Below the pieces are notes generated by a model. That model made no database searches, had not been told where the DNA came from, and worked only from the letters and a program-made list of their open reading frames with translations. A stretch of DNA of 64,000 bases, taken from the NCBI GenBank assembly GCA_943736015.1, contig OX031072.1, positions 10,877,501-10,941,500 of the forward strand, read 5' to 3'. Numbering within the stretch: the first letter of the stretch is position 1; every line of letters starts with the position of its first letter. Positions 16,382 to 34,553 of the stretch are shown here, piece by piece. The position numbers were made by a program, and so were the translations under genes. Origin of the DNA: Tridacna crocea (lineage: Eukaryota > Mollusca > Bivalvia > Cardiida > Cardiidae).

Positions 16382-16383
<2 letters not shown>

Positions 16384-16436: not shown

Positions 16437-16438
<2 letters not shown>

Positions 16439-17459: not shown

Positions 17460-17554
17460 GCATCGCCGCGGAATCTCTGGTCAATATTTTAGAATTAAAT
17501 AAATAAATAATAAACAAAAATCATTGAAATTAAAAAAAAAAACTCTACAGACTG

Positions 17555-17720
17555 ATGGACAAATTTCTCTGTCTTCTTTTCTTGTGTTTAATGGCACCTT
17601 TTCCTGCTCTCAAACAGTGTCAATTCGGTCAGTATTGGAGTAGTGTACTGCAAGTATGTCGACCATGCAGAGATGTCTGTGAACCTACTGCACGACCGTC
17701 GTGCTGGGACTTTTGTCTAG
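17555..17720 (+). CDS. Receptor gene 1, exon 1 (signal peptide and CRD)
   Basis: 166 nt, 55 codons plus one base. The start is the only ATG before the hydrophobic signal sequence. If the intron were retained, translation would run on through a Val-rich hydrophobic stretch and stop at 17788. Confidence 0.85.
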
Positions 17721-19971
17721 GTATGCCTCACATCAACGTAGTAATTGTATCAGCGGCAGTAGTAGTAGCATTAGTAGTAGTAGTGTAGAAATTGTTGTAA
17801 TTGTTGCAGTACAAGTTGTTGATTTAGGGTGAAGAGGAGAAACAGTCGTTATTCTACTTGGTCTGAAAGAGATTTAACATATTTGGATAGCAAAAAGGCG
17901 AAAAGGGGCATTCGGACATTTCCGTAAAGTTTCGTTTCGGATCAGTCTGCGCAGTCCGCGCAGGCTCATCCGAACCGACATTTTCCGTTTTCATTTAATT
18001 TTCTATTTTGCACAAGTCTACTGTTGCACAAAATCTAGTGTAAGCATAAAGCGCCGTCTCGGATCAGCCTGCTCAGCTGATCCGAGACAACACTTGACGC
18101 CAGTGTCAGAAACCCCTCTTTTCGCATGTTGCGGGCCATATTAGATCCTTGATGCATAATACTATTCATGCTCTTTGACAAAGGTGTTTAAGGGGCTAAT
18201 ACATCAGGGGGTGGGGGTGATCGACCCAAGTCAACCTATGCAGTCCTCGTTGGTCAACTTTCTGCGTGTACAAGGATCATTCTACCCGTTTTGTCTATTC
18301 CGTTTCACCAGTTGTTATACACAAAGGACTGTATGGGTAATTATTGACGATTTTGTTGTTTTAATGCATCATGGAGATGCATTAATCCTTTCCCAAGCAA
18401 TCCCTGGTTTTTACGGGTCAGGAATAGAAGCCTTTGGAAAACATTGTTGGAAAAGGAGAAAATGCTGGTAACCAGCATTTTCTCCTTTTCCAACAATGTT
18501 TTCTACCCAATCATATAGAAAATTCATCTTTTTAGCAACTGTTAATTTGTCATCTGCGAAATTCTTTCAATTTGGTCTAATCCAAAATTTGCCGTTTGGG
18601 AAAGGGTTAACTCTTTACCACACAATCCCGAGTTTTGACGTCCTTGAAGAAAAAGCCTTTTGAAAACATTGTGGGAATGTTTTTTCCCGCAATGTTTTCT
18701 ACCCCTCTGAAAACAAATTTTATTTTTGGAGCAATGTTTATATTGTCGTCTGCAAATGCGTTGAATTCGGACCAGTCTGAAATTTTGTCGTTTGATGAAG
18801 AGTTAACCCCCCCCCACCCCCACTTTTGCCAGTTGGTATAAGTTATGTTTTTATGCGAGTTACTAGAAAGTGGTTTCAACTGTAATGTTGAAATAAATAA
18901 ATGACGTGTTTCGATCCAATCGCTCATGTACAGTGTTAATTTTAGGTTTCTAAGGGCAACTCGCTGACCTTTTGCGGACATCATAGATCAGGATCAGACT
19001 GCACAGAACGTGTCATTATGTATATATACTGCTCCTTTGACATACAGAAAATCGACCAATTGCGAACAGTTTCTGCCCAGGTTAGCCTGCGCGGACTGTG
19101 CAGGCTAACCTGGGTCGATACTTTTCGCAGATGCATAAAGCCCCCTTTTCACAGAGCATGGCTCATAGTTGTTTCATATTTTTTTATTTCTTTTTTGTTC
19201 AATTCCATTTCAGATGTCTTTTTCCAACGTCTGAATCAATCTAATAGCACAACTGTCGTGACAAAGATCATGTCAACAACTTCACAACCTATAATCGCTG
19301 ATTACACCTTTCTCAACGTTCTATCACCAATACTGGTAGCACCTTTACTTATGGTTGGTTCTGTCGTTGGTATGTTTTTCGTAGTGGATTACTTCAGAAA
19401 CACCAAAGTTAGAAATGCACATAGATGTAGGCGAGATGTAGAAAACGGGAATGGCCAACAGGGTATTGAACTGCAACCTCTCAATGGCACTGCTGTACAA
19501 CAGGAAAATGATAACCAAGATGTGGACGAAAATGGTGATGGTAACAGAGACGGCGACGCTTCGGGAACATGGGTTTATGAACCCGAATATGATTGCCCCA
19601 GGATCAGAGATATGGAGACCTTACCACAACAACGAGCTCAACCGCTGGATTCTCTGGACAGCTTACCACAACAACGAGCTCAACAGCCGGATTCTCTGGA
19701 CAACTTACCACAACAACGAGCTCAACAGCCGGATTCTCTGGACAGCTTACCACAACGAGCCCAACAGCCGGATTCTCTGGACAGCTTACCACAACAACGA
19801 GCCCAACAGCTGGATTCTCTGGACAGCTTACCACAACAACGAGCCCAACAGCTGGATTCTCTGGACAGCTTACCACAACAACGAGCTCAACAGCCGGATT
19901 CTCTGGACAGCTTACCACAACAACGAGCTCAACCGCTGGATTCTTTAGAAAGGAACCACAATTCTTATTAA
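17555..19971 (+). CDS. TNFR-superfamily-like receptor 1 (one BCMA/TACI-type CRD); join 17555-17720, 19214-19971
   Basis: Predicted 307-aa type I membrane protein from two exons. Residues 1-19 form a signal peptide (hydrophobic LCLLFLCLM core). Cys 22, 35, 38, 42, 50 and 54 follow C-x12-C-x2-C-x3-C-x7-C-x3-C, the spacing of BCMA and TACI ligand-binding domains, with the aromatic pair YW at 27-28. A Ser/Thr-rich stalk and a helix at about 91-113 follow, then a basic juxtamembrane stretch and a polar tail with eight tandem 14-aa units (residues 192-302). The intron is phase 1: donor GTATGC at 17721, acceptor TTTCAG ending at 19213. No death domain and no strict TRAF motif is seen. In that family such receptors bind TNF-like cytokines; ligand and signalling here are inference. 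The acidic residue of the mammalian DxL ligand motif is Ser. No AATAAA follows closely. Duplicate of gene 2. Confidence 0.82.
17895..18130 (+). mobile_element. E palindromic element in intron of gene 1
   Basis: GGGGCATTCGGACATTTCCG, GCGCAGTCCGCGCAGGCTC, GTTGCACAAAATCTAGTG, GCCGTCTCGGATCAGCC...; matches 26455-26680 in the intron of gene 2, so it predates the duplication. Confidence 0.75.
18165..18320 (+). mobile_element. D element fragment in intron of gene 1
   Basis: CATGCTCTTTGACAAAGG, GATCGACCCAAGTCAACC, then a tract like TTTCTGCGTGTACAAGGATC; counterpart at 26700-26830. Confidence 0.55.
18382..18610 (-). mobile_element. Family A (CCCAAAC subtype) MITE in intron
   Basis: TTAATCCTTTCCCAAGC ... 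TTTGGGAAAGGGTTAA with a perfect hairpin. Absent from the gene 2 intron. Shares its right TTAA with the next copy. Confidence 0.88.
18607..18806 (-). mobile_element. Family A MITE with shortened hairpin in intron
   Basis: TTAACTCTTTACCACACAAT ... GAAGAGTTAA. The hairpin retains only AACATTGTGGGAATGTTTT and TTCCCGCAATG. Shares the TTAA at 18607-18610 with the preceding element. Confidence 0.85.
18955..19165 (+). mobile_element. B fragment followed by D palindrome
   Basis: GCGGACATCATAGATCAGG...GCACAGAACGTG is the left half of a family B element (18955-19015). It is followed by a D palindrome centred on GCCTGCGCGGACTGTGCAGGC, then TACTTTTCGCAGATGCATAA and CACAGAGCATGGCTC. Confidence 0.65.
19214..19971 (+). 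CDS. Receptor gene 1, exon 2 (stalk, TM, repeat tail)
   Basis: Two bases complete the split Asp codon (residue 56), then 251 codons and TAA. Aligns along its length with exon 2 of gene 2 (shared blocks KIMSTxSQP, GMFFVV/AMFFVV, DVENGNGQQGIELQ, SGTWVYE). The frame continues upstream into the intron without a stop, but the CAG acceptor and phase match set the exon border. Confidence 0.85.
19621..19953 (+). repeat. 42-bp coding minisatellite
   Basis: Seven 42-bp units plus one 39-bp unit (the fourth lacks a CAA codon), in frame. Unit translation is LPQQRAQQPDSLDS with QP/QL/PL variation; the first and last units share the PL variant. Gene 2 has a single related unit (LPQQRAQQSNSLES). Confidence 0.95.
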
Positions 19972-20059
19972 CTCGTTTCACTACTGAGTTTTCTGAAAGG
20001 CAAAAAAACTAAAAACATTTCCTCTGACAGACCAAGAGAAAGTTCGGCCAGAATCTAGA

Positions 20060-20145
20060 ATGTAACAGTGGACAGCGTAGATCAGAGATCAACCTGCACG
20101 TTCTGTACACTCTGATCTTGATATACACTGTCCACATATGCTTCT
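20060..20145 (-). mobile_element. Family B hairpin remnant
   Basis: GTGGACAGCGTAGATCAGAG, centre CACGTTCTGTAC, CTCTGATCTTGATATACACTG. Counterpart at 27955-28060, downstream of both receptor genes. Confidence 0.65.
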
Positions 20146-20426
20146 TGGATCGTCTAGAGTATGAAAAAAAAGTTAAAAGACTGAACTTTACAAATAACTG
20201 AGGGATGCTTTGGGGAAAAGTGGATTTAACACATAATATCAAGCAAATTATCGGATTACTACGGAACTATTTAATCTGACAACGAACTGAGTAATGGGGT
20301 TAACTGGTCCTTTGATATAATTTATAGTTTGCGGACGACACAAAGAAAATGTGATTTAACTTTGACGGAATACAAAACCTTTTGGTAACCAATTGCAGTA
20401 CTTTCTCTTTTTTCGAAAAGCCTATT

Positions 20427-20535
20427 GACCCTTTACCACACAATGCCAACTTTTAACGACCCTAGGAAAGAAGCCCTCTGAAAACCTTGTAGGAAAAAGA
20501 GAAAATGCTGGTAACCACAATGTTTTCTAGCTTAT
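20427..20535 (-). mobile_element. Family A MITE, left part
   Basis: TTGACCCTTTACCACACAAT to TTTTCTAGC with the right hairpin arm mostly deleted; the rest is missing. Confidence 0.65.
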
Positions 20536-20564
20536 AATGTCTTTATTGTTATTTTTGTTTGTTC

Positions 20565-20720
20565 CAGGCAATTTTTTGCCTCTAACCTCTGATACACGTG
20601 AACAAAGTAATCAGTTGCTTGAATAGAAACTTCTCTTAATACTGGTGTCAGAAAGCAAGGAAACACATAAGTAGGTGTTCTGGTCGCCCTGATAGGACTT
20701 TTCCTGTTAAAATGGCAATT
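20565..20720 (+). mobile_element. SINE, 5'-truncated (S2)
   Basis: CCAGGCAATTTTTTGCCTCT, AATACTGGTGTCAGAAAGC, CTGGTCGCCCTGATAGG; nearly the same as the 3' part of the SINE at 28541-28800, so shared by the two units. Confidence 0.75.
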
Positions 20721-20938
20721 GACCCTTTACCACACAATGCCGACTTTTGACGACCCTGAGAAAGAAGCCTTTTGTGGAAAAAGGAGAAAATGCTGGTAAC
20801 CAGTATTTTCTTCTTTTCCCACAATGTTTTTTCTCATCCTCGATACAAATTTTAAATTTTCAGTCACTTTTATGTTGACGTCTGCAAATGCTTTCAATTT
20901 GGACCAGTCTAAAATTTTGTCGTTTGCTAAAGAGTTAA
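20719..20938 (-). mobile_element. Family A MITE
   Basis: TTGACCCTTTACCACACAAT ... TTGCTAAAGAGTTAA. The left hairpin arm lacks AACATTG, the rest is recognisable. Confidence 0.8.
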
Positions 20939-20977
20939 CTTCAGTGCAAACACACAAAAAAAATACTGGGTTTTTTT

Positions 20978-21135
20978 CACAGGAGTGTCCTTGGGCAAGA
21001 CACTTCAGAGCCTAGCCTAGTACTGGTGAAACCCAGGAAACATGAATATGTGAACTATCGCCGTGATATGACTGAAATACTGTTGAAAGCGGCGTAAAAC
21101 ACCATTCAAACAAAATTCAAACAAACACAAAAAAA
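20978..21135 (+). mobile_element. SINE 3' part (S3)
   Basis: TCCTTGGGCAAGACACTTC, AGTACTGGTGAAACCCAGG, TATCGCCGTGATATGACTG, GCGGCGTAAAACACCATTC then an A-rich tail: the shared 3' domain of the SINEs in this window. Confidence 0.75.
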
Positions 21136-21252
21136 TAAGCAGGGTACACTGATCATTGGAAACAAAAAAACAAGTTACATTACTGAGTTGTGTTGTCTAT
21201 TAAACGAACATATAAGTGCTAAAAATCTCTCTTTGGAATTGTGTGCATGTGT

Positions 21253-21450
21253 TTAACCTTTTACTAAACAATCTTTGGTTTTCACAACCCCGAGGAAGTG
21301 GCCTTTTAAAAACATTGTTGGAAAAGGAGAAAATACTGGTGACCAGCATTTTCTCCTTTCCCACAATGTTTTCTACCCTTCCCAAATCAAACTTCAATTT
21401 TTGAGTGGCACTAATTTTGTTGTCTGCAAATTCTTTCAATTTGGATGGGC
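21253..21450 (-). mobile_element. Family A MITE cut by a deletion
   Basis: Matches 28926-29143 of unit 2 up to CTTTCAATTTGGAT, then passes directly into GGCCGTTTTGTAGGGG of the P palindrome. The right end and about 1 kb seen in unit 2 are missing. Confidence 0.85.
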
Positions 21451-21845
21451 CGTTTTGTAGGGGAGGGCCATTTCTCTGCATTACACCGGCAAAATTTCAG
21501 TGGGTCGCGCGTAGCAGCTTAAGAGATAAAAATTATTATATACGATAAATTATCTTCTAAAATATGTCCGAGCTTTGTAAAAAGATGGTCTAATGCATCT
21601 GCGAACAGTATCTACCTTTGCCAGCTTGCCCAGTTCGTGCAGGTTGACATGGGTCGAAACGTTTTGCTATTTGTAAATTTCCAGCATGTCAAAAGACGGT
21701 ACTATCTCATAGTCCAATCGGTAGTTCGACTAAGTAGTTTTAATGGATCAATAACTCTGTGACGACTCGCTTAGTGTACTTTTCGACCCTGGCAAAGCGG
21801 GTGTAATGCAGAGAAATGACCTTCCCCTAGAAAATGACCCATTGG
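21451..21845. other. P-palindrome arms and D remnant at the unit 1 end
   Basis: 21451-21485 is one arm of the P palindrome (TTTTGTAGGGGAGGGCC). A D-type remnant lies at about 21590-21700. An opposing arm is at about 21797-21840 (GTAATGCAGAGAAATGACC). Corresponds to 30118-30455. Confidence 0.65.
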
Positions 21846-22403
21846 TATCACGGAGATTCATAGAGCCCCCTTTTGCCAGAGCACTGCTCGTCAATGAAAA
21901 AGCAACAACTTATCTTTCCATGTGAAGACAATTTTGAACACCAAAGGACAGACAGACTGTACAGAATCCCAAATCACATACACTGCATACTCCCGGTCCT
22001 ACACCGTGTTTTTACCCAAGGTGATTGTTTGAGGTTTCCCCAAATTTCGTTGCATCATTTAATCCAGTTCTTAAGCATATGATATTTTTGCGCATTTCTA
22101 TCGATCATATTCGTGATATTTAAGAAAGGGTCAATTAAGGGATGGGATTGTGATCTAAATAAAGTAACGTCCCGGAAACACCTGGCATATTTTTAGCGCA
22201 TGACTATACATGTATAGTTATCATTGATATGTCAAAAAACCAATAATAACTTTCTAATCCTCTATACTTTTTCAGACAAATCTTCTAATAAGATGAGGCC
22301 ATTGTTATACAGGGAATAATCATCTAGTTGTGTGTGAAAAAAAAGAAAATCTGTCACTAGTATGGCGTATGATGCGGTTGATAAATGAGTCTGAAGTAAC
22401 GCA

Positions 22404-22771
22404 TTAATTCTTTACCAAACTACAAAAAAATTAGACTTGTCTAAATTAAAAGCATTTGCAGACGACAAAGTAAACGTGACTGAAAAAATGAAATTTGACG
22501 ATGAAAGAAAAGAAAACAGTGTGGGAAAAGGAGAAAATGCTGGTTACCAGCATTTTCTCCTTTTCCCACAATGTTTTTGGAAGGCTTCTATTTCAGGTTC
22601 GTTAAAACCAGGGATTGTTTGTAAAATGAAATTTGACGATGAAAGAAAAGAAAACGGTGTGGGAAAAGGAGAAAATGCTGGTTACCAGCATTTTCTCCTT
22701 TTCCTACAATGTTTTTAGAAGGCTTCTTTTTCAGGTTCGTTAAAACCAGGGACTGTTTGGTTATGGGTTAA
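22404..22771 (+). mobile_element. Family A MITE with duplicated hairpin module
   Basis: TTAATTCTTTACCAAACTAC ... TTATGGGTTAA. The module AAAATGAAATTTGACGATG-hairpin-GTTCGTTAAAACCAGGGA occurs twice in tandem (about 22484-22622 and 22623-22760), each with a full hairpin. Confidence 0.9.
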
Positions 22772-23242
22772 ACCCCATTCGGACGACAGGTTTTTAATAC
22801 CACAAACAACCCGTTGATCATTCTATCTAGTATGATATTCCTAATTCAATACTCGTATATTCCTAATTCAACCTTTGATTTCAAAGAATTATCAAGAATG
22901 GAGCAATGTGAGCAAAGGAGGAAAAGGTAGTTTCGAAAAACATTTAGAAAAAAAAACCTATAGGTTAAAAGCTATATTGTCACTAGTGATGATATTATAA
23001 TTATGCAACGAAACAGTACTAACGCCAATTTCGAGAATTTTACATATCTTCCACATTTCCGGATCGCCATGCGCTGACGTCATACAATTCACTATCATGC
23101 ATGTTTGAAATACCTCCATTTTCATCCAGTGACATTTGCAGAATCCGGTACTTTATTTATCCACTATTGTTATCTATTCTGTTTGACATAGAGTCATACA
23201 ACAAATGCAGTCATTACTAATACTCTATGAAAATAGAGGCTG
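22772..23242. other. Non-genic stretch, partly unit 2-specific
   Basis: 22772-23085 has no match in unit 1; from AATTCACTATCATGC (about 23087) it is again colinear with 14944 onward. No gene recognised. Confidence 0.5.
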
Positions 23243-23470
23243 CTAACTCTTTACCAAACAACAAAATTATAGCCGGACTGGTTTAAATTGAAAGCATTCG
23301 CAGACGACAAAATAAATCTGACTGAAAAATTGAAATTTGGTTTGAGAAGGGAAGGAAACATTGTGGGAAAAGGAGAAAATGCTGGTAACCAGCATTTTCT
23401 CCTTTTCCTACAATGTTTTCAAAAGGCTTCTCAAGGCAACTTAAAAGTCGTGATGGTGTAAAAAAGCTGG
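23243..23470 (+). mobile_element. Family A MITE
   Basis: Counterpart of 15099-15313 with the complete hairpin (GTGGGAAAAGGAGAAAATGC). Confidence 0.82.
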
Positions 23471-23930
23471 CTTAAAAAAAGCATTGTGGTAAAGAATGAG
23501 CTGCTTGTAACCAGCAGTTGCACTATTTCCTACTATGTTTTTTATCATTCAAAGGACGAATCACACCATTTCTTGGCACATTTCAATCGTCTTTTATAAA
23601 TTCAGTAGTTTCGTTAGGTGTTGAAGTATGGTTATAATTTGCATGCTAGAACAATTAAGAATCTGTTACTTCTGAAAATCCACATCCTTGTCCATGCCTG
23701 GCGGTTCTTGAAGAATGCAGCTCAACATCCACTCTTGTTTTCCACGCTGTTTAAAGCTCATTGTTACTAAACAGCCGAGGAAATTTCAATTTCTTACAAT
23801 TGTGGATGCCGGCTTTCTCTGTGCTCTTCGAAATCCCTGTTCATTGTATTTATATACACGTGTGTTGTAAACCTCGAAGATCCATGGGAAGTCGAAAATA
23901 ATCATATTTGATCGCATTATCCCCCGCTAG

Positions 23931-24285
23931 ATGGCATTCTACAAACACACCATGTACATATACACAACTATCTAATATGGGCATTCTGGGTACAGAACCG
24001 GTCTACTTTTCTACGCGACAACCATTACCTCTGAATTTCGAACAAAAAAATAAACATTGACTGAACTAAAGGGTACCTGGTGCGATTCATTCAGCTATGA
24101 TCGGCTAGCATGTAACCTATGCACCGGTCATTTATTAAAACAGGCTTGAGAAATAGCCTCAGTGTAAGCCCTACTTTTCCCTAGTGTATGGGATGGGTGA
24201 TGCGTCATAGAAGACAAGTCGAATCTTCAAAGAGTATGACATATGCAGATCGTAGTCAACCTGCCATGTTTCACCCTAAGGTTGG
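23931..24285 (+). repeat. R dispersed repeat, copy 2
   Basis: Duplicated with copy 1; starts CGCTAGATGGCATTCTAC and ends near GATCGTAGTCAACC. Confidence 0.8.
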
Positions 24286-24405
24286 TAGGTGCGACTCAAC
24301 GACTTTTTGCGGACATTGTAGATCAAATTCAGACTCCACTTCCTTGCAGTCTGGTCTTGGATCTACATTGCCCGACAAGGAGATGGTTTTCCTTATTGGT
24401 CGAGA
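24285..24405 (+). mobile_element. Family B MITE, left part
   Basis: Counterpart of 16125-16250: GCGGACATTGTAGATCAAAT, TGCAGTCTGGTCTTGG, CCCGACAAGGAGATGG. Confidence 0.7.
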
Positions 24406-24527
24406 CTAAATGTCGTAAACGTCGGACATGAAAGGCTGAAAGTGATCATCTGCGGTCGTAGTCACTTTGTCACTATTTACATTGTTATATTTATTTCTAA
24501 ATTTCCAGGATAGCAATCTGATTGGTC

Positions 24528-24530
<3 letters not shown>

Positions 24531-24561
<31 letters not shown>
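24531..24561. repeat. (GA)n microsatellite
   Basis: Counterpart of 16384-16436, shorter. Confidence 0.9.
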
Positions 24562-24563
<2 letters not shown>

Positions 24564-24843
24564 TCGAGACGTTGCACCTCCACTTATGAGGCAAACAGCG
24601 GAGGATAGCCTGAACAGTTATATACGTGACAGGTTAGTCTGGAAGTGTTTGTAGAAAGGTTTTTAATAGCTGCACTGACGGCCATTATTTAACGTATCTA
24701 ATTCTATTTTAGAATGAACTCATCTATTACTTAGTCCCCAATTCCTATATCCATCCCGTCATCAGCACGCAGAAAATAGAAATAGGGGGATGGGTTGAAG
24801 TGCCCATCATATCAGTAAAGGGATTCGTGTACTGTCACCTAAC

Positions 24844-25071
24844 TTAACCCTTTACCAAACGGCAAAAATTTAGACTGGTCCAAATTGAAAGCATTTGCAG
24901 ACGACAAGATAAAAGTAACTCAAAAATTGAAATCTGTTTCCAACAGGATAGAAAACATTGTGGGTAAAGGAGAAAATGCTTGTTACAAGCATTTTCTCCT
25001 TTTCCCACAATGTTTTCCAAAGGTTTCTATCTCAGGGTCGTAAAAACAAGGATTGTTTGGTAAAGGGTTAA
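24844..25071 (+). mobile_element. Family A TTAA MITE
   Basis: Counterpart of 17089-17317; TTAA kept on both sides, hairpin centre CTTGTTACAAG. Confidence 0.9.
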
Positions 25072-25151
25072 ATAGCCGTATTTCAAATAATCCAATTCGA
25101 ACTGAAAAGATACAGATCAGGCTGGGGCGAATCTAAAGTTTTCTCTGGGTC

Positions 25152-25379
25152 TTAACCCTTTCCCAAACAATCCCTGGTTTTTACGGGTCAGGAAAAGAAG
25201 CCTTTTGAAAACATTGTGGGAAAAGGAGAAAATGTTGATCACCAGCATTTTCTCCTTTTCCCAAAATGTTTTCTACCCTATCATAAAGAAAATCATCTTT
25301 TTAGCAACTGTTAATTTGTCAACTGCAAAATACTTTGAATTTGGTCTGGTCCAAAATTTGCCGTTTGGGAAAGGATTAA
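25152..25379 (-). mobile_element. Family A (CCCAAAC subtype) MITE
   Basis: TTAACCCTTTCCCAAACAAT ... TTTGGGAAAGGATTAA; present only in unit 2, between the conserved MITE and the gene 2 promoter block. Confidence 0.88.
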
Positions 25380-25409
25380 TCACAATCTCTCTCACATTAT
25401 TTTTGAGGT

Positions 25410-25560
25410 ATAACTAACTGACTAAATGGTGTTTTACGTCATTTCACGGCGACAGCATACATATTGATGTAGTTTCTGGTTTTCAACTGTACTAGGCTGG
25501 GGCTCTGAAATGTCTTGCCCAGGGACATGCCCGCGGAAACTTAACTATTGTTACAATATC
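25410..25560 (-). mobile_element. SINE 3' part (S4)
   Basis: Reversed SINE domain: ATGGTGTTTTACGTCATTTC, CACGGCGACAG, GTACTAGGCTGGGGCTCTG, TGTCTTGCCCAGGGACA. Confidence 0.7.
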
Positions 25561-25631
25561 AACCAGTATACTACAGTATTTCGGCCTTTTGTTTTTCTTG
25601 CTCACAGAAATAAGCCTTTGACAAGAACCTA

Positions 25632-25715
25632 GGATATTTTTTATGGACAGTGCTTATCAAAGATCAGACTGTACAGAGTATGCAGTCTGATCTTTGATAA
25701 GCACTGTCCGATATG
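25632..25715. mobile_element. Family B-like hairpin
   Basis: Nearly perfect inverted repeat GGACAGTGCTTATCAAAGAT / ATCTTTGATAAGCACTGTCC with arms over 25 bp, without the outer family B parts. Confidence 0.7.
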
Positions 25716-26087
25716 TTTTTTATTTGTTCCCGCGCGAAAAACTTTAAAATCTGAATATTTGGGCTTTTTTTCTCTACTGGTTTCAAATGACTGTACAATT
25801 TTTTCAGCAGGCTTAAGATTCAATAGGGCTCCGCACCCTATTAACACCAAGAGCACAAAGACACGCTACGATGGCTAAGGTATTCATGCTCATATGCCCA
25901 TCCCATTGCCGAAAAACCTTTATTTCCCTCTATTCATAGTAACACTTTGGAAATTTTCGTCGGTATTTTTAGATGAAATATTGCATGGATCTATTTACTG
26001 GGAAATTTTCGGCAAAGGTATTATAGTATCGACGTGGAATCCCCGATCAATATTTTAGGATTAAATTTAAAAAAAAAAAGAACAAAA

Positions 26088-26292
26088 ATGGTAGAAATGA
26101 AAAAAAATATCGACAGACTAAAGGCCAAATTTAAATTTCTCTTTCTTCTTTTCCTGTGTTCAACGTCGACCTGTTCTGCTATTAAACGGTGTCAATTCGG
26201 TCATTACTGGAGTACTGTACTGCTAGAATGTCGACCATGTAGCGAGGTCTGTGAACCTCCTACTCGACCACCGTGCTCAGATTTTTGTCCAG
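26088..26292 (+). CDS. Receptor gene 2, exon 1 (signal sequence and CRD)
   Basis: 68 codons plus one base. The frame is open upstream but without an ATG before 26088. Intron retention would add a Val/Ala-rich hydrophobic stretch and stop at 26345, as in gene 1. Confidence 0.82.
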
Positions 26293-27825
26293 GTAGGCCT
26301 CATATCTACGTAGTAATTGTAGCAGCAGCAGTAGTAGTAGTGTAGAAATAGTTGTAATTGTTGCAGTACAAGTTGTTGATCTTGGGTAAAGAAGAGAAAC
26401 AGTCGTTGTTCCATTTGGTCTGAAAAAGATTTAACATGTAATTTACCTGTAACTCGCGAAAAGGGGCATTCGAATATTTCCGTAAAGTATCGTTTCGGAT
26501 CAGCATTCAAACGACACTTTCCGCGGTTTTTATGTAATTTTCTGTTTTGCGCAAGTCTACTGTTGTACAAAATCTAGTGTAGTCGGAAAACGCAGTCTCG
26601 TATCAGTCTGCGCAGTTGATCCGAGACGACACTTTACGCCAGTGTCCGAATGCCCCCTTTTCGCATGCTGCAGGCCACGGTCGATCCTTGATAAATGATA
26701 CTGTCAATGCTCTGTGAAAAAAGGGTTTAGGTGCAGACTGACCGGGCTCGAAACTTTTTGCTTTGGTCAATTTTCTGCATGTCCAAGGAGCATTCTACCC
26801 ATTCTTTTTAATTCTATTTCAGCAGTAACTGTTATGCAAACTGATAACTTGCTCTCTTCGATACGTCACGGACATGCATCAAAACCCCTTTTGCCAGAGT
26901 ATGGCTGTAATTCCAACGTTAACCCTTTACCCAATAAGGCATTTCTGTGGCATCTCTAAGTGACCCTAAATAACAGCAAAGATGAAGCCGTTTTTTATGT
27001 GTAAATGATACCTTTTGATAGCATAGAAAACATTGCGACAAAAGGTGAAATTGCTCGTGACGAGCAATTTCACCTTTTGCCACAATTTTTTCCAAAGGCT
27101 CCTACAAGCAATATGTAGAAATGAGTATCTATGGAGTAAAGGGTTAAGCATAAATAAGTCTGAGTTAAGGATTTCGTACGAATTATTGGAAAATGAGATG
27201 TTTTCCTCCAATAATTCATGTATAAGGAGATATCTCGGACTACGCATGCTGACCTGGGTCGATACTTTTCGCAGGAGCATCAAGCCCCCTTTATCACAGA
27301 GCATGGCTCAAATCTATCTTATAATTTATTTCTTTTTAGTTAAATTCTATTTCAGATGTTTATATACAACTTATGAATCAACACAGTAGTACAACTGCCA
27401 TCACAAAGATCATGTCGACAAAGTCACAGCCTGTGCCAGCAGATTACGCCCGCTTCAACGATCTATCACTAATACCGGCAGTACTTTTACTTCTGATCGG
27501 TTCTGTCATTGCTATGTTTTTCGTAGTCAATTATGTCAGAAACACCAAAGTTAGAGAAGCACATAGACGTAGGCGAGAAGATGTAGAAAACGGGAATGGC
27601 CAACAGGGTATTGAACTGCAATCTCTAAATGGCACTGCTGTACAACAGGGAAATGACATCCCAGATGTGGACGAAAATGCTGATGGCAACAGAGAAGGCG
27701 AGCCTTCGGGAACATGGGTTTATGAAAGCAACAATCGTTGCATCAGGATCAAAGATCTGGGGAGCTTACCACAACAACGAGCTCAACAGTCGAATTCTCT
27801 AGAAAGTAACCATTATTCTCATTAA
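26088..27825 (+). CDS. TNFR-superfamily-like receptor 2 (one BCMA/TACI-type CRD); join 26088-26292, 27356-27825
   Basis: Predicted 224-aa type I membrane protein, tandem duplicate of gene 1. A basic 14-16-residue N-terminus precedes a hydrophobic stretch (FKFLFLLFLC), giving a longer signal sequence than in gene 1; a second in-frame ATG lies at 26097. The CRD has Cys 35, 48, 51, 55, 63 and 67 with the same C-x12-C-x2-C-x3-C-x7-C-x3-C spacing. The stalk is Thr-rich, the helix spans about 105-126, and RNTKVREAHRRRR follows it. The tail carries one LPQQRAQQ unit where gene 1 has eight. Phase 1 intron: donor GTAGGC at 26293, acceptor TTTCAG ending at 27355. AATAAA occurs at 27856 and 27912. The upstream block matches gene 1, but the TATA-like motif is altered (TATTATAG, 26019-26026). 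Receptor role is inferred from the CRD spacing and topology. Confidence 0.82.
26455..26680 (+). mobile_element. E palindromic element in intron of gene 2
   Basis: Counterpart of 17895-18130: GGGGCATTCGAATATTTCCG, GTTGTACAAAATCTAGTG, GCGCAGTTGATCCGAGACG. Confidence 0.72.
26700..26918 (+). mobile_element. D element in intron of gene 2
   Basis: TCAATGCTCTGTGAAAAAAG, GGGCTCGAAACTTTTTGC, GGTCAATTTTCTGCATGTCC, and a final GCATCAAAACCCCTTTTGCC close to CAGAGTATGGCTG. Confidence 0.65.
26919..27147 (+). mobile_element. Family C TTAA MITE in intron of gene 2
   Basis: TTAACCCTTTACCCAATAAGG ... CTATGGAGTAAAGGGTTAA. Hairpin AACATTGCGACAAAAGGTG ... with GCTCGTGACGAGC centre. No copy at this position in gene 1. 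Confidence 0.9.
27235..27310 (+). mobile_element. D element right half
   Basis: CTGACCTGGGTCGATACTTT, CGCAGGAGCATCAAGCCCCC, CACAGAGCATGGCTC; corresponds to 19100-19165 in gene 1. Confidence 0.65.
27356..27825 (+). CDS. Receptor gene 2, exon 2 (stalk, TM, tail)
   Basis: Completes the split Asp codon (residue 69), then 155 codons and TAA. The conserved segment between the helix and the C-terminal repeat unit is the best-preserved part of the pair. Confidence 0.85.
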
Positions 27826-27855
27826 CTCGTTCCACAACTGCATTTTCTGAAAGGA

Positions 27856-27861
27856 AATAAA
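27856..27861 (+). terminator. Poly(A) signal candidate of receptor gene 2
   Basis: AATAAA 31 bases after the stop codon, with a second at 27912-27917. The matching place in gene 1 reads GGCAAAAAAAC, so the signal is not conserved there. Confidence 0.55.
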
Positions 27862-27954
27862 ACAACATCTGACAGATTTTGTATTTTGGGCCGGTGGCCT
27901 TATGTATTCTAAATAAACTATCAAGAGAAAGTTCGGTCAGAATCTAGAATGTAC

Positions 27955-28060
27955 ATGTAGCAGTGGACAGCGTAGATCAGACATCAGACCGCACAATCTG
28001 TGCACTCTGATCTTGATCAACATTGTCCACAAATGCTTCTGGTCTAGTCTTGGGTATGAA
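27955..28060 (-). mobile_element. Family B hairpin remnant
   Basis: Counterpart of 20060-20145: GTGGACAGCGTAGATCAGAC ... CTCTGATCTTGATCAACATTG. Confidence 0.65.
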
Positions 28061-28294
28061 AAAAGTTACTTCACAAATAATTGAAGGGTGCTTTGGTGAA
28101 AATGGGATTTAATGCATAATATTCAAGCAAGTTATCCAATCACTATAGATCTACATTATCTTACAATAAACTGAACCATAACCCTCAATGCAACAAAAAA
28201 AAATGTGATTTATCTTTGACGGAATACAAAACATTGCTTTACCAGTACTATCCCATTTTCCACAGCGTATTAAAGGTATTTTTATGCTATTGCC

Positions 28295-28521
28295 TTAACC
28301 CTTTACCACACAATTCCGAGTTTTAATTCCCCTGAGGAAGAAGCCTTTTGAAAACATCGTGGGAAAGAGAAAATGCTGGTAACCAGCATTTTCTCCATTT
28401 TTCCCACAATGTTTTCTACTTCGCTTGAAACAAATTTCAATTTTTGAGTTACATTTATTTTGTCGCCTGCAAGTGCTTTCAGTTTGGACAAGTACTATGT
28501 TTTCGTGTGGTAAAGAGTTAA
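28295..28521 (-). mobile_element. Family A TTAA MITE
   Basis: TTAACCCTTTACCACACAAT ... GTGTGGTAAAGAGTTAA; hairpin slightly mismatched (CATCGTGGGAAAGAG / CCATTTTTCCCACAATG). Confidence 0.85.
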
Positions 28522-28540
28522 AACCCATGGATCATGCGAT

Positions 28541-28800
28541 GTAAGGTTAAACTGGGTAGCTCAGTGGTTAGCGTATCTGACTAGTGACGTAGTGGTTGCG
28601 GGTTCGATACACATTTCAGATTTTTTTTTTCTAGGCAACTTTTTGCCTCTAACCTCTGATGCATGTAAACAAAGTAATCAAATGCTTGAATAGTAACTTC
28701 TCTCAGTACTGGTGTCAGAAAGCAAGGAAACACATGAGCAGGGGCACTGGTCGCCCTAATAGGACTTTTACTGTTAAAATGGCAATTAACTTCAGACCAA
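28541..28800 (+). mobile_element. tRNA-derived SINE (S5)
   Basis: Head GTAGCTCAGTGGTTAGCG (A-box region) and GCGGGTTCGATACAC (B box), T-run, AACCTCTGATGCATG, AGTACTGGTGTCAGAAAGC, CACTGGTCGCCCTAATAGG. It is a SINE head joined to the common 3' domain, not a free tRNA gene. Confidence 0.85.
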
Positions 28801-28925
28801 GCACACAAAACATTAAACAGGGTACATTGATCATTGAAAAAAACGATTAACGTTGCTGCGTTGTGTTGACTGTCAAACGAACATATAAGTGCTCAAAATC
28901 TTTCCTTGGAATTGTGTGCATGTAT

Positions 28926-29143
28926 TTAACCCTTTACCAAACAATCCTTGGTTTTCACAACCCTGAGGAAGAGGCCTTTTGAAAACATTGTTGGAAAAGG
29001 AGAAAATGCTGGTAACCAGCATTTTCTCCTTTCCCACAATGTTTTCTACCCTTCTCAAATCAAACTTCAATTTTTGAGAGGCATTAATTTTGTTGTCTGC
29101 AAATGCTTTCAGTCTAATTTTTTGTAGTTTGGTAAAAAGTTAA
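28926..29143 (-). mobile_element. Family A TTAA MITE
   Basis: Complete copy whose unit 1 counterpart (21253) is cut by a deletion. Hairpin slightly mismatched (ATTGTTGGAAAAGG / CTTTCCCACAAT). Confidence 0.88.
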
Positions 29144-29741
29144 ACGAACTTCTTTTCCACAACTTATTGTCTTTGTTTTGCCTAAAAATGACAGCATTTA
29201 TTTCCACGAGGGCTTACAGATCTTTTTCATAATTTCACTCTGGAACAAACTCACTAAGTTCAACAGTGTTTCACCTGATAAATTTAACTTCAGATAGAGC
29301 AAGTGTACCACTCAAAGTTTGCTAAGCACCAAGAATATTTTTGTACATATATATACATATCTTAGGGTAAATGTTTAGCATTTTTTCTTGTTGGACATAT
29401 ATTGGGCTTTATTAATTTTTGTTTGTTAAGTTTTCTTACACTTGTTAGGCACTCTTTTTTTTCCCTCATTTTAAACTGGATGGTCTCTAAAGCGATTCTT
29501 TTCCCAAAGCGAGTAAAAAAAAGGAATTTGCGAGAAAAGCTGGTGATTAATTTGGTATGGGCTATTTGCAAGACTTGCTCAAGGAATTTACCTGTCATAC
29601 AAGGTGTGTGTACTACAGACCTTCCCACTGAATAATTTCCACTACTAATTAATATCACAAAAATATAGAATACGGATTCTACTATGGTGCTAAAAAAAAT
29701 CTCGGTCCTTAACAAACTTTGAGTAGTATATAAAGCGACGA
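29144..29741. other. Unit 2-specific non-genic stretch
   Basis: Missing from unit 1 through deletion. Opposed short open frames near 29362-29715 have no recognisable domain. Confidence 0.4.
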
Positions 29742-29920
29742 TTAACCCTTATTCTGCTAGATAAAAGAAATGGCCCTTTCAAGGCAATTAGAAACTCCAT
29801 TTTTTCCCACTATTTCACAGGTATTTATGGAGGAAAGATAAATCCTTAATTGGGCACTATAGATCCAAGATCAGACTGCACGTTTTGTACAGTCTGATCT
29901 TGATCAACGCCGTCCCGATG
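29742..29920 (-). mobile_element. Family B MITE, reversed, left part lost
   Basis: TTAACCCTTATTCTGCTAG ... GGGCACTATAGATCCAAG, hairpin AGATCAGACTGCACG ... CAGTCTGATCTTGATC, ending in the P palindrome. Confidence 0.75.
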
Positions 29921-30160
29921 TAATGCAGAGAAATAACTCTCCCCTACAAAATGACTCGGGTCATTATTCTACGTAGAGAAATGATCCCAGAAATCATTTC
30001 ACCACGTAGAGGAATGACCCGGGTCATTATTCTACGTAGAGAAATGAACCCTCTGGGGTAATTTCTCTACGTAGAATAATGACCCAGGTCATTTCTCCAC
30101 GTAGAGGAATGACCCATGGGTCGTTTTGTAGGGGAGGGCCATTTCTCTGCATTACACCAG
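29918..30160. mobile_element. P palindrome (TACGTA-rich)
   Basis: Outer arms GTAATGCAGAGAAATAAC / GGCCATTTCTCTGCATTAC and inner repeated blocks TCTACGTAGAGAAATGA and GAATGACCCGGGTCATT arranged as nested inverted repeats around AACCCTCTGGGGTAA. No coding capacity. Confidence 0.85.
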
Positions 30161-30254
30161 CAAAATTTCAGTGAGTCGCGCATAGCAGCTTAAGAGATAA
30201 AATTATTATATACAATAAATTATCTTCTAAAGTATGCAATGGTCCGAGCTTTGT

Positions 30255-30565
30255 AAAAAGAGAGCCTAATGCATCTGTATACAGTATCTACCTTTGTCAG
30301 CTTGCCCAGTTCGTGCAGGCTGACATGGGTCGAAATTCTTTGCTATTTGTAAATTTCCAGCATGTCAAAGGACCGTTCTCTCTCATAGTCCAATGGGTTG
30401 TTCGACAAGGTAGTTATTTTGGATCAATAATTCTGTGACGACTCGCTTAGTATACATCAAGGAGATGGTTAGCCCTCCCACCCCCTTTTGCCAGAGCATG
30501 GCTCAATCCGAAATACAAATGATCCATGCTCTGGAAAAAGGGGGCTTAATGCATCTCCGTGATGC
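30255..30565 (+). mobile_element. D palindromic element
   Basis: GTCAGCTTGCCCAGTTCGTG, GGTCGAAATTCTTTGC, GTAAATTTCCAGCATGTC, CCTTTTGCCAGAGCATGGC, then GGGGGCTTAATGCATCTCC. The first 200 bp are shared with the end of unit 1. Confidence 0.7.
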
Positions 30566-30794
30566 TTAACCCTTTACCACACGACAAGATTTTAGACCTG
30601 TCCGAATTGAAAGCATTTGCCGATGGCAGTTTCGTTGTGGCTCATATAAAATGAGTTTTCTTTGATATAGTAAAAAACATTGTGGGAAAAGGAGAAAATG
30701 CTGGTAACCAGCATTTTCTCCTTTTCCCACACTGTTTTCAAAATCCATCTCTTTCAGGGGTGTTTAAAGTCGTCATTGTGTGGTAAAGGCTTAA
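30566..30794 (+). mobile_element. Family A TTAA MITE
   Basis: TTAACCCTTTACCACACGAC ... GTGTGGTAAAGGCTTAA, hairpin with one mismatch (CACTG). It shares subtype features with 13004-13464. Confidence 0.9.
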
Positions 30795-30899
30795 TACCAA
30801 GTGAGCCATCACATACTCATTGATTTATAATAGCCACTTTCTTTAAAAACCGACTAAACCATAAGGTAGACTGAGCCTTGGGCATACATAAAAGTGGTA

Positions 30900-31005
30900 A
30901 ATAGCTAAAAGTTTCGACTCAGGTCAGCAGTCCGCACAGGCTGACCTGCGTCGATACCTTTCGCAGATGCATTAAGCCCCCTTTTGACAGAGCATTCCTC
31001 AAATA
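30900..31005 (+). mobile_element. D palindrome, right part
   Basis: AGGTCAGCAGTCCGCACAGG, CTGACCTGCGTCGATACC, TTTCGCAGATGCATTAAGCC, ACAGAGCATTCCTC. Confidence 0.65.
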
Positions 31006-31832
31006 TTTCGAGTTCCGAGTGTATGTTGTTTAATTTTTTCACACTAGAGCTTTGTAAATATACATCTGCCACGATATTTTGTTGTAGATCTTGAATCATT
31101 TGCTTTGAAAATATATACGTGTAATTGCTGTACATTTACAATTGTTGTACGTGTCATTATGAATGAATGAATGAGTGAATGGCTTTACTGACTTATACAT
31201 CTTGTACATACATGTAGTCAGTTACTACCAAATTGTCCCACGTGATACAATTCTCTCTCTCTCTCATTTTCTGGTCACTGCTGTTTCGGTCTCAAAATTA
31301 CATCATATTTGTACGAGTATATTTGATCAAACTACGCAACAAAAATTAGTAAAAGTACTCTCTCTCTCTTTATGGAGAGGAACTTTGTAACCTTTCATGC
31401 TTCCATTCCAATCATTTTTATACTGCTCAATTGTACTTTATATGCATGTTATTCTTTCTACTTTTTACTGTATTAAATAAATATATTTTAACTAAGTGAA
31501 TTAATAAGAATTCAATTATTAGCTCAGCAATCTTCATATCATCGTATGCATGGTTGTCGTTATAGTTTGTGACTCATCAAATGCCTTCACACTGGGATAT
31601 AGTCAATTGTACAAGTTTACATAGTAGAGCCTGAATTATATATAAATAAATTGGGAATACCCATTCTATGCTATAAATATCTCTAGGTCTATAATAGATA
31701 TCAGGATGGGTGGGGAAAATCCAGCATGTTGCTATTTTGCAATCTAACACGAGCGATCACTTTAAGTTTCTTTAGTACTGTCCAAAGAGCTCGGTCGTTT
31801 CGTCACACCTTTTTAAATCTAATTAAAAAAAA
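31006..31832. other. Region upstream of receptor gene 3
   Basis: No coding exon recognised. A GAATGAATGAATGAG microsatellite lies at 31160-31180. A TATATATAAA motif at 31638-31647 is a possible but distant TATA element (about 190 bp from the ATG). It does not resemble the gene 1/2 promoter block. Confidence 0.4.
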
Positions 31833-32034
31833 ATGATGGAAATGACTTCGTCTGTTCAAGCGTTTTCAAAATCAGTTTTAATTATGATGTATATATGTTT
31901 ACTTACTCTCAATGGACATGCGAAGAAAGTTTGTACAGAAAACGAGTATTACCAGTCGGTTCTAAAAGACTGTCTACCTTGCGAAGGAGTTTGTGAACCT
32001 CTGACAAGATCCGACTGTGAAAGGCTCTGTAAAG
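31833..32034 (+). CDS. Receptor gene 3, exon 1 (signal peptide and CRD1)
   Basis: 67 codons plus one base, donor AAAG/GTTGGT at 32035. Reading on into the intron would stop after eight residues. Confidence 0.83.
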
Positions 32035-33429
32035 GTTGGTACGATTGCTTTTCTAAATAACTCCTCTGTGACATTGGCGAAAATACACACATTTGCGGCC
32101 GGTATAGATCAAGATCAGACTGCAAAAAACGTGAAGTCTGATCTTGGATTTATACCGTCCGCTTTATTAGCAACGATAAAGTAATTCTTATCTTCTGTGT
32201 TTAACTTAACCCATTACCATATAATCCCTACTTTTGACAACCCTGAGAAAGAAGCCATTAGAAAACATTGTGGGAAAACATTGTGGTAACTAGCATTTTG
32301 TCCTTTTCCCTCAATGTTTCTACCCTTTATAAAACAAATTTTAAGTTTTTAGTCACTTTTATTTTGTCGTCTACAAATGCTTTCGATTTGGACAAGCCTA
32401 AAATTTTGTCGTTTGGTAATGAGTTAAACGGATGTATGTTCAGCGTCAAAGGCGGCTTAGTTTATCTACATGACGCTGAACTATACGCTGAGCCCAAGCA
32501 GGCAGTTGGTAAAAAAAAGGCTTGGTATCTAGCAGTAATTCTAAGCATATAAAGTAAAACTTAAAATACTTTGTTTTGCGAAGAGATGAAAAATATGATT
32601 ATTAGCCCTTTACCAGGCCACAAAATTTACCTTAGAAAAGGGAAAGCATCAAAGGGGGGGGGGGGGGGGGGAAAGAATTCTTGTACGTCAAATTATCTTT
32701 CTAGCTAGATAACGACCGAAGATAAACAAGTAACAAATTGGTCCTTTAACATGTATTCCTTTGTTTTTATCCTAAATTACTTTGAGGATGTTGCGACAAA
32801 TATAATGATTTGTGATTACTTGTAAGGTACGAATCTTGAGAGAAATAAGTTGCATTGTATATCGATTTTGCAAAGCATTTTTTTCCTATTACAGTGTTTT
32901 TTAAGTCCGTGTTTCTCGGGGTTGGTAAAAGAAAAGTCTAAATTGAATGGGAATGGGTTAAATGGTTACTCTCTTTTCTCAACCTCAGGCTTTTACCAAA
33001 GACAAACAGAATGTAACCCCTACCAGTATTGGGAAAAATACCTAGAAATATGTGTTAACTGCAGTGATATTTGCGTTCCAGTCACCCGGCTAGATTGTAA
33101 AGACAGATGTCAGCGTAAGTATAGCTACAGATTAATCGCATCATCATCATCATCATCTTCGTCGTCGTCGTCCTCCACCTCACTCATCATCATCATGATC
33201 ATCATCATCATTATGAATTATGTTAAAATCTTAGGTTTATTGCTTTTCAGAGTATAGTTTTACAAGAAACATGATTAAACTGTTTTTTTTTTATACAGAT
33301 GTACTTGTTTTAAAATGAACAATCCCACGATAGATTTTTCTTCCGAGTGAGGCTTATTTAACCCTAGGCTGCTAAGAACGTGCAGTCTGATCTTGGGTCT
33401 ACACTGTCCGATAAGCAGACAGTGCCCCC

Positions 33430-33460
<31 letters not shown>

Positions 33461-34553
33461 AGAATAACACGGAAATAGCAATATTTGGTTTTTACTATCG
33501 AAATGAAAAATTCAATTTAGTTATTCAGCAGGATAAAGTTTAACTCTTTTACCAAACGAACAACATTTTAGATTGATCCAAATTGAAAGCATATTTGCAT
33601 ACGAAAAATAAATGTGACTAAAGAATTTAAATTTGTTTTAGGAAGGGAAGAAAACATTGTGGGAAAAGGAGAAAATGCTGGTTACCAGCATTTTCTCCTT
33701 TTCCCACAATGCTTTCACAGAGCAGTTAAAAGTCGGGATTGTGTGGTAAATGGTTAACATGATAAAGTCGAATTGCGACAAATTCGAATCACGAACTAGT
33801 CAAACTAATCGTTATCCTACTAAATTAAGTTAAACGAAACTTCCAAGCCAATAGTTAACACCCAAACAATGCTTTTATCAAACTTTATTTTTGGAGGAAA
33901 GTATCTCCTTATCGCACAGAAGAGATCAAAGATTTATAAAAGTCATTGCGAGAGAAGTCATTCCCCTCCCACCGCTGACCATCGTCTCGACAATGGTTGT
34001 ATGGGAAAGCAGCCAGTGGCTTGGAAAGCCTATTGCGCAGAGTTAGCCTACTGGTAAAAGAGACTCCAGGAAAGCATGGATATTTGCACTTGTCGCCGTG
34101 ATATAACTCAAACAAAGTTGAAAACGGCGCTAAATACCAAACAACCAATCAATCATCAGTCCAGATGATATAAATAATTGAAATTCCTCTACCTATATTG
34201 CAGATTACATTGATAGTCTGACAACAACAACGACAACAATAACAACAACAACAACAACAACAACAATAGAGAAGCCAAAACACACCGAAAACATTTCCCC
34301 CAAACAAACAGTAGAAGGAAACCGACCAGGACAATCAGATGTAGATTTGATCATCATCATTATCAGCTTGTCAGCCCTCATCGGTTTTGGTTTAATAATT
34401 GTCGCAATATGTTTGTGGCAGAAAGCTAAGATTAAGAAATTTTTCAGAGCTCTGCTGCATATCAATAAAACCGAGAAGGCACCAATTCAAGTGACAAATG
34501 ACTCAGGACCTAATAGTTTACTGCTTGTAAACGGCCAGCAATCCACTGTTTAA
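31833..34553 (+). CDS. TNFR-superfamily-like receptor 3 (two BCMA/TACI-type CRDs); join 31833-32034, 32989-33114, 34204-34553
   Basis: Predicted 225-aa type I membrane protein from three exons, both introns in phase 1. Residues about 12-30 form the signal peptide. CRD1 has Cys 34, 47, 50, 54, 62, 66; CRD2 has Cys 76, 89, 92, 96, 104, 108; both keep C-x12-C-x2-C-x3-C-x7-C-x3-C and an aromatic pair (YY, YW) before the second Cys. This two-CRD layout with a single helix is that of mammalian TACI (TNFRSF13B); orthology is not claimed. A run of Thr/Ile (116-130), coded by an ACA microsatellite, forms the stalk. The helix spans about 157-179, then a basic QKAKIKKFF segment and a 40-aa tail. No death domain. 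The middle exon is symmetric, so its skipping would keep the frame and give a one-CRD form. The stop codon lies inside the TTAA of a family A MITE. The start is at an ATG pair; the second in-frame ATG is the next codon. Confidence 0.82.
32088..32165. mobile_element. Family B hairpin in intron 1 of gene 3
   Basis: GCGGCCGGTATAGATCAAG, AGATCAGACTGCAAAAAACG, CTGATCTTGGATTTATACCG; outer ends missing. Confidence 0.65.
32206..32427 (-). mobile_element. Family A TTAA MITE in intron 1 of gene 3
   Basis: TTAACCCATTACCATATAAT ... GGTAATGAGTTAA; part of the left hairpin arm is deleted. Confidence 0.85.
32654..32671. repeat. G homopolymer in intron 1 of gene 3
   Basis: Eighteen G, preceded by a family A left-end fragment (about 32603-32650, CCCTTTACCAGGCCACAAAA). 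Confidence 0.9.
32989..33114 (+). CDS. Receptor gene 3, exon 2 (CRD2)
   Basis: 126 nt, symmetric phase 1-1. Acceptor CTCTTTTCTCAACCTCAG ending at 32988, donor GTAAGT at 33115. The exon codes one CRD and nothing else. Retention of the following intron would add a Ser run and an Ile-rich hydrophobic segment ending at 33257. Confidence 0.83.
33139..33214. repeat. (TCA)n/(TCG)n microsatellite after CRD2 donor
   Basis: Trinucleotide runs starting 25 bp inside intron 2 of gene 3. In the frame of CRD2 they would code Ser then Ile repeats. Confidence 0.85.
33358..33543 (+). mobile_element. Family B MITE in intron 2 of gene 3
   Basis: TTAACCCTAGGCTGCTAAG, left hairpin arm deleted, GTGCAGTCTGATCTTGG, right end CAGCAGGATAAAGTTTAA; shares the right TTAA with the next element. 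Confidence 0.82.
33540..33757 (+). mobile_element. Family A MITE in intron 2 of gene 3
   Basis: TTAACTCTTTTACCAAACG ... GTGGTAAATGGTTAA with a full hairpin, head-to-tail with the B element on a common TTAA. Confidence 0.87.
33880..34158 (+). mobile_element. SINE in intron 2 of gene 3 (S6)
   Basis: GAAGTCATTCCCCTCCCACC, GACCATCGTCTCGACAATGG, CAGCCAGTGGCTTGG, GGTAAAAGAGACTCCAGG, CTTGTCGCCGTGATATAAC, GGCGCTAAATACCAAACAAC, then an ATCA-type tail. Confidence 0.8.
34204..34553 (+). CDS. Receptor gene 3, exon 3 (stalk, TM, tail)
   Basis: Acceptor ATATTGCAG ending at 34203; completes the split His codon (residue 110), then 115 codons and TAA. The exon phase matches both exon 1 and exon 2. Confidence 0.8.
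34221..34268 (+). repeat. ACA microsatellite coding a Thr stalk
   Basis: Fifteen codons of ACA with ACG and ATA interruptions, in frame in exon 3 of gene 3, giving T6-I-T7-I. Confidence 0.88.

Follow-up and report, generated by a model that had tools for sequence, protein, structure and literature searches.

A tandem cluster of putative TNF receptor genes with BCMA/TACI-type cysteine-rich domains in Tridacna crocea

B cells and plasma cells receive support from BAFF and APRIL through BCMA and TACI, two receptors of type III topology that are not known to have a signal peptide. Receptors with a single cysteine-rich domain (CRD) are described for BAFF, APRIL, TWEAK and the arthropod Eiger system (PMC6684607), and an Asp-x-Leu motif at the tip of a hairpin is described as the ligand motif of BCMA, TACI and Fn14 (PMC8024323). 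Many TNFs and TNF receptors (TNFRs) are described in oysters and mussels (PMC4346834, PMC3308963, PMC4979521). Among the papers listed by full-text searches, which covered few subscription journals, none describes an invertebrate CRD of the BCMA/TACI type; the closest precedents are the topological likeness of fly Grindelwald and the annotation name of a snail protein. Here, we analyze a window of 64,000 nucleotides from Tridacna crocea (C17:10877501-10941500, in an assembly of 1.05 Gb and 31 contigs) containing three clustered genes, A, B and C, whose CRDs are by sequence of the BCMA/TACI class. With gene D on another contig they form a four-gene family, in a genome that also holds TNF-type ligand and TRAF genes. 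On balance, we favor the view that A to D are single-pass receptors of the TNFR superfamily, with one (A, B and D) or two (C) BCMA/TACI-class CRDs on a stalk, that would bind a ligand of the EDA/APRIL/Eiger type, with C and D probably signaling through TRAF adaptors.

Anatomy and class of the CRD genes

Scanned in all six frames, the whole window yielded exactly four matches to C-x12-C-x2-C-x3-C-x7-C-x3-C, all on the forward strand; 30 Markov-shuffled windows yielded none. The original prediction of four CRDs of this exact spacing in three genes is thereby upheld, as is an aromatic pair ahead of the second cysteine (YW in A, YW in B, YY and YW in C), and the span it had assigned to the cluster, 17555-34553, has the gene A ATG and the gene C stop codon as its exact ends. 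All three genes are intact, with no internal stop and with GT-AG introns, every one in phase 1; A (307 amino acids) and B (224 amino acids) have two exons each and C (225 amino acids) has three. Because all introns are in phase 1, the exon holding the second CRD of C is symmetric. The domain order is a hydrophobic stretch, the CRD (two in C), a stalk, a transmembrane stretch and a cytoplasmic tail. Hydropathy bore out the N-terminal hydrophobic stretch and the one strong internal stretch proposed for each protein; the "short tail" proposed along with them holds for gene C (43 amino acids) and fails for A and B, whose tails measure 191 and 95 amino acids. Ahead of the CRD, the N-terminal 19-mer reaches a hydropathy of 1.4-1.8 in all four proteins, D included, from which a signal peptide is predicted as probable.

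Gene D contains a fifth module (C1:22895458-22895556, reverse strand) and encodes 182 amino acids. Its first exon comprises a signal-like segment and the CRD and ends in a GTAAGT donor in phase 1; the second comprises the stalk, a transmembrane stretch and a 37-residue tail. Used as genome queries at E ≤ 10, the first CRD of C and the CRD of D each recovered the same set of at least five modules, the four in the window and that of D, whereas the CRD of A recovered A and B at E ≤ 0.001; module counts in the genome are lower bounds. All five modules share one spacing, and their pairwise identity is 33-70%. Among viral contigs, the spacing pattern occurred 37 times, and none of these matches was confirmed.

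Class membership was assessed by searching 177,635 sequences of the Protein Data Bank (PDB) at E ≤ 10. Queried with a profile built from the four window modules, the PDB returned 16 matches, comprising 10 to BCMA (E 7e-4 to 0.084), two to TACI (0.088 and 0.15) and four to tyrosyl-tRNA synthetases (1.2-1.3); no TNFR besides BCMA and TACI was returned at this threshold. The CRD of gene D alone matched BCMA in 10 of 10 hits (E 0.002-0.017), compared with E 0.012-0.14 for human TACI CRD1-2 against BCMA, likewise a single-sequence search. With all five modules, the profile scored 26.2 bits for BCMA, 28.5 for TACI CRD1 and 16.7 for TACI CRD2, values reached by none of 200 column permutations (best 15.8, 19.0 and 15.6, respectively). 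Pairwise scores were also computed with the cysteines fixed and other residues shuffled 2000 times, using TACI CRD1 letters that are taken to be correct. The five modules scored 46-85 (z 2.1-5.3) in 10 comparisons with BCMA and TACI CRD1, the highest being D against TACI CRD1, and six of the 10 reached the score of 66 (z 3.7) obtained for BCMA against TACI CRD1. Judged from these alignments, the likeness to BCMA and TACI exceeds cysteine spacing.

Among Pfam models, BCMA-Tall_bind (PF09257) ranked first for proteins A and C and for the modules of A, D and C CRD1, below its cut-off in each case. The classical model TNFR_c6 (PF00020) had no match in Pfam scans of A to D, and a genome search with it found 19 places at E ≤ 1 (10 over the cut-off), none of them at the four genes. 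Together, the profile matches to BCMA and TACI and the absence of TNFR_c6 matches agree with the predicted assignment to the BCMA/TACI class and not to the classical TNFR class.

Candidate ligands, TRAF adaptors and competing explanations

The Pfam TNF model matched 12 exons in the genome, 11 of them over the cut-off. All 11 (L011-L021) lie on contig C13, several close together, which suggests a tandem expansion of ligand genes. L021 (C13:41494753) has an upstream exon that reads GIYFVYAQ followed by a GT donor. Its two-exon TNF domain matched EDA (3e-8), APRIL (4e-8), 6i50 (1e-7; presumably Spodoptera Eiger, from PMC6684607), BAFF (9e-5) and fly Eiger (0.002) in the PDB, with the next match at 0.15. 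Against the APRIL fusion 4zch, whose remaining segments look like BAFF when aligned, three matching stretches reached 4e-20. A human EDA query found two exons on C13 (E 0.007 and 0.12), L021 and a second one of this type, L056 (C13:41451781). For L056 no upstream exon was found; its first PDB matches were Eiger (2e-4) and EDA (5e-4), with BAFF at 0.5 beside chance hits. With human BAFF as the query, the sole match in the genome had E 4.4 and contained a stop. Of 11 exons examined, L021 and L056 carry a C-x14-C pair, as in APRIL, and the remaining nine lack it (L016 and L017 were omitted as near copies of L015). We infer that this pair bridges strands E and F; an E-F disulfide is described in Eiger, BAFF, APRIL, TWEAK and EDA (PMC6684607).

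TRAF-C domains were matched eight times over the cut-off in the genome, two of these being fragments with stops. On contig C3, two TRAF-C pairs of near-equal spacing were observed at 44.73 Mb and 45.96 Mb, each with a short neighbor containing two stops. Six TRAF motif patterns were tried on the four tails. The tail of gene C contains PIQVT, which fits PxQx[TS], a motif present in 2.1% of shuffled tails; that of gene D contains AQEE and TQEE, which fit [PSAT]x[QE]E. None of the six patterns gave a strict motif in the tails of A and B, and a TRAF reading of their repeat (PQQRAQ) was rejected for that reason.

In the mechanism that we propose, a TNF-type trimer of the EDA/APRIL/Eiger group, with L021 and L056 as candidates, would bring together three receptors that each hold it largely through a single CRD. 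Once clustered, C and D would recruit TRAF adaptors to PxQxT- or [PSAT]x[QE]E-type motifs in their tails, while A and B may use other signaling or other partners, or may serve as decoys or modulators. We infer the fold of the CRDs, pairing with these ligands, TRAF binding, expression of the genes and a role in defence or tissue growth.

Several results weigh against this proposal. A match to a Pfam TNFR CRD profile, which the original prediction had expected, was not obtained over any curated cut-off: BCMA-Tall_bind reached at best 20 bits against a cut-off of 27 (C CRD1 alone, E 7e-4; A 16.2 and D 17.4 bits), PF09305 reached 17.3 against 22.9, and protein B and the modules of B and C CRD2 matched no Pfam TNFR model. 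For whole protein D, BCMA-Tall_bind ranked third, after two unrelated weak matches. Searched against the genome, the same model found eight places; gene C came second, with an E of 0.3, and gene D only seventh, with 3.6. As these ranks fall among probable chance hits, the single-module search is not significant. In the pairwise comparisons, A, B and C CRD2 scored 46-61 against BCMA, and all five modules scored 35-50 (z 1.8-3.1) against TACI CRD2, below BCMA against TACI CRD2 (55, z 3.6). Asp-x-Leu is absent from all five modules, the aligned triplets being SSV, STV, QSV, EKY and QPV; the leucine next after the triplet is kept in all five. The N-terminal signal-like segment of A to D is unlike the type III topology of BCMA and TACI. 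Given the likely signal peptide and the missing Asp-x-Leu, none of the four is a demonstrated BAFF/APRIL receptor.

Two AlphaFold models built from the four window modules place a helix at residues 7-15 or 8-16, where BCMA has a hairpin, and a Foldseek search of the PDB with the first model found no match. Both models are of low confidence (predicted local distance difference test [pLDDT] 73 and 70, predicted template modeling score 0.44 and 0.33), and pLDDT across five models each ranged over 52-73 and 55-71. Because only four sequences were supplied and the pLDDT spread is wide, the helical models were not taken as disproof. On the ligand side, 10 TNF exons besides L021 exceed the cut-off, so that the pairing rests on co-occurrence; L012 also matches the APRIL fusion (1.5e-6), with FasL, TRAIL and RANKL ranking higher; and L056 lies just below the Pfam TNF cut-off (22.7 against 23 bits). 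The TRAF motifs are short, several patterns were tried, and those of D possibly reflect composition, since 5.9% of shuffles equal their count.

The first alternative, which we regard as unlikely, is that A to D are TNFRs that came to resemble BCMA and TACI by convergence on a minimal six-cysteine CRD, with other invertebrate TNFRs as their kin and a FasL/TRAIL-like ligand. The CRD spans only 33 residues and lacks Asp-x-Leu, and three of the further TNF exons have their best PDB matches in FasL/TRAIL/RANKL (L012), TRAIL/TL1A (L015) and LIGHT (L019). Fly Grindelwald, too, is described as similar in topology and poor in sequence similarity (PMC8024323). However, the non-cysteine matches to BCMA and TACI surpass the permutations, and the CRDs bring up no other TNFR in the PDB at E ≤ 10 and lie outside the TNFR_c6 matches. 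Between the two origins offered by the original prediction, "convergent" seems less likely than "old" because non-cysteine positions match and EDA/APRIL/Eiger-type ligands are encoded in the same genome.

Less probable again is that A to D correspond to Wengen or Grindelwald, the Eiger receptors of arthropods. Eiger/EDA-type ligands in the genome and the two [PSAT]x[QE]E motifs in the tail of D would suit such receptors; Grindelwald is described as having one CRD with a topology like that of BCMA, Fn14 and TACI CRD2, also without Asp-x-Leu, and Wengen is aligned with TACI, BCMA, Fn14 and BAFF-R (both PMC8024323). Yet Anopheles Wengen and a Grindelwald homologue are reported as found by TNFR_c6 (PMC9646898), which does not find A to D, and the cysteine pattern of Wengen is described there as TNFR1A-like, so that Wengen is set apart here by description. 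Grindelwald is described with eight cysteines and C-x3-C-x11-C-x3-C (PMC8024323), compared with six and C-x3-C-x7-C-x3-C in A to D, and the fly protein (6zt0, presumably in the PDB set) was not returned by the window profile at E ≤ 10. Finally, A to D could be cysteine-rich proteins, secreted or membrane-bound, that have no relation to TNFRs and serve, e.g., in pattern binding or adhesion. This would fit the low single-sequence scores and the AlphaFold models unlike BCMA, but the PDB matches specific to BCMA and TACI and the receptor architecture of all four genes, each with a transmembrane stretch and a tail, make this reading very improbable.

Should A to D prove to be TNFR-superfamily receptors for the APRIL/EDA/Eiger-type ligand that this genome encodes, ideas on how the BAFF/APRIL axis arose would become testable outside vertebrates. 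Such binding would also bear on the proposal, based on Eiger, that single-CRD recognition preceded multi-CRD receptors (PMC6684607). Matching receptors and ligands in one genome hint that the signaling pair may predate vertebrate immunity. As a tentative extension, which we hold possible rather than probable, a BCMA/TACI-type receptor and an EDA/APRIL/Eiger-type ligand may already have been paired in the protostome-deuterostome ancestor and kept here without B cells (four receptors and two ligands found), and the vertebrate B-cell survival axis may have been recruited from that older pair.

Tandem duplication, repeats and feature coordinates

Genes A and B lie within a tandem duplication of ~8 kb (Table 1). 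Identity between the two copies is uneven. Upstream of the genes it reaches 96% (14933-16376) and 92% (16881-17344) but drops to 84% and 75% elsewhere; within the genes, exon 1 is 81% identical, the stalk 72%, and the part of exon 2 ahead of the repeat 83%. The dN/dS ratio between A and B was 0.82 over 204 codons and 1.85 in the tail, where 4.5 synonymous changes stand against 28.5 non-synonymous ones. Positive selection is not claimed: the changes are too few, and patchy homogenization accounts for the divergence of A and B as well. The 14-amino-acid unit of the gene A tail occurs once in gene B, and by sequence the repeat in A is an expansion of that unit.

A scan with relaxed spacing found no more modules in 60 kb on either side, and the window contained no match in searches for tRNA genes and Rfam families. 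A palindromic core, GGAGAAAATGCTGGTWACCAGCATTTTCTCC, occurs at 16 places in the window (e.g., 18455, 22530, 30691, 33668 and 58304) inside repeats of ~240 bp that represent a dispersed foldback element, and a copy is also present in the gene D intron on contig C1. A second palindromic family, AGATCAGACTGCA...TGCAGTCTGATCT, has 18 matches in the window (e.g., 25681, 36696/36716, 46194/46214 and 59771/59791). Elsewhere in the window, a 51-bp unit forms a tandem array of two adjoining blocks at 38899-39715, and a long open frame at 55973-57247 (forward strand) matches the branch-2 histidine phosphatases (PF00328, E 1.8e-27) and contains an RHGDRT motif.

Table 1. Coordinates of features in the window
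Feature	Position	Strand	Description
Left duplicon copy	14129..20517	+	Carries gene A
Gene A exon 1	17555..17720	+	Start, hydrophobic signal-like segment, one CRD, phase-1 donor
Gene A CRD	17618..17716	+	CQFGQYWSSVLQVCRPCRDVCEPTARPSCWDFC
Gene A exon 2	19214..19971	+	S/T-containing stalk, transmembrane stretch (~19330-19386), 191-aa tail
Gene A tail repeat	19613..19944	+	42-bp coding minisatellite, ~8 copies of a 14-aa unit around LPQQRAQQPDSLDS
Right duplicon copy	21854..28385	+	Carries gene B
Gene B exon 1	26088..26292	+	Signal-like segment, one CRD
Gene B CRD	26190..26288	+	
Gene B exon 2	27356..27825	+	Stalk, transmembrane stretch (~27472-27528), 95-aa tail
Gene C exon 1	31833..32034	+	Signal-like segment, CRD1
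Gene C CRD1	31932..32030	+	16 identities with BCMA, highest among modules
Gene C exon 2	32989..33114	+	Symmetric, phase 1-1, holds CRD2
Gene C CRD2	33012..33110	+	
Gene C exon 3	34204..34553	+	Thr-rich stalk, transmembrane stretch (~34347-34403), 43-aa tail
Gene C tail motif	34482..34496	+	PIQVT, fits PxQx[TS] TRAF-type motif

Comparison with described receptors

Among protostome receptors, Drosophila Grindelwald resembles A to D as a single-CRD TNFR without Asp-x-Leu, and its tail is described as binding TRAF2 (PMC8024323). Wengen likewise is a receptor of protostomes, with the EDA-like Eiger as its ligand; it was compared by description only, the Anopheles protein being described as found by TNFR_c6 and without a predicted signal peptide (PMC9646898). 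In molluscs, a Pomacea canaliculata protein annotated as "TNFRSF13B-like" bears the name of TACI and is by that name a candidate relative of A to D, and its Bellamya counterpart is described as changed under toxic cyanobacterial exposure (PMC9958990).

BCMA (TNFRSF17), the best PDB match, shares with A to D one six-cysteine CRD, the spacing C-x12-C-x2-C-x3-C, a second module that likewise has the form C-x3-C ... C-x3-C, an aromatic pair whose first residue stands 8 positions ahead of the second cysteine and a leucine 3 positions ahead of that cysteine. It differs in having eight residues between cysteines 4 and 5, where A to D have seven, and in its described Asp-x-Leu (PMC8024323), the modules of A to D having Ser, Gln or Glu in the Asp position. 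In TACI (TNFRSF13B), CRD2 is, by a reference title in PMC8024323, the ligand-binding CRD; its spacing (x14, x6) differs from that of A to D, its scores are lower, and TACI has the Asp-x-Leu that A to D lack. The two tandem CRDs of gene C are an arrangement shared with TACI. TACI CRD1, in the letters used here, has a spacing identical to that of the A to D modules and the same YW pair.

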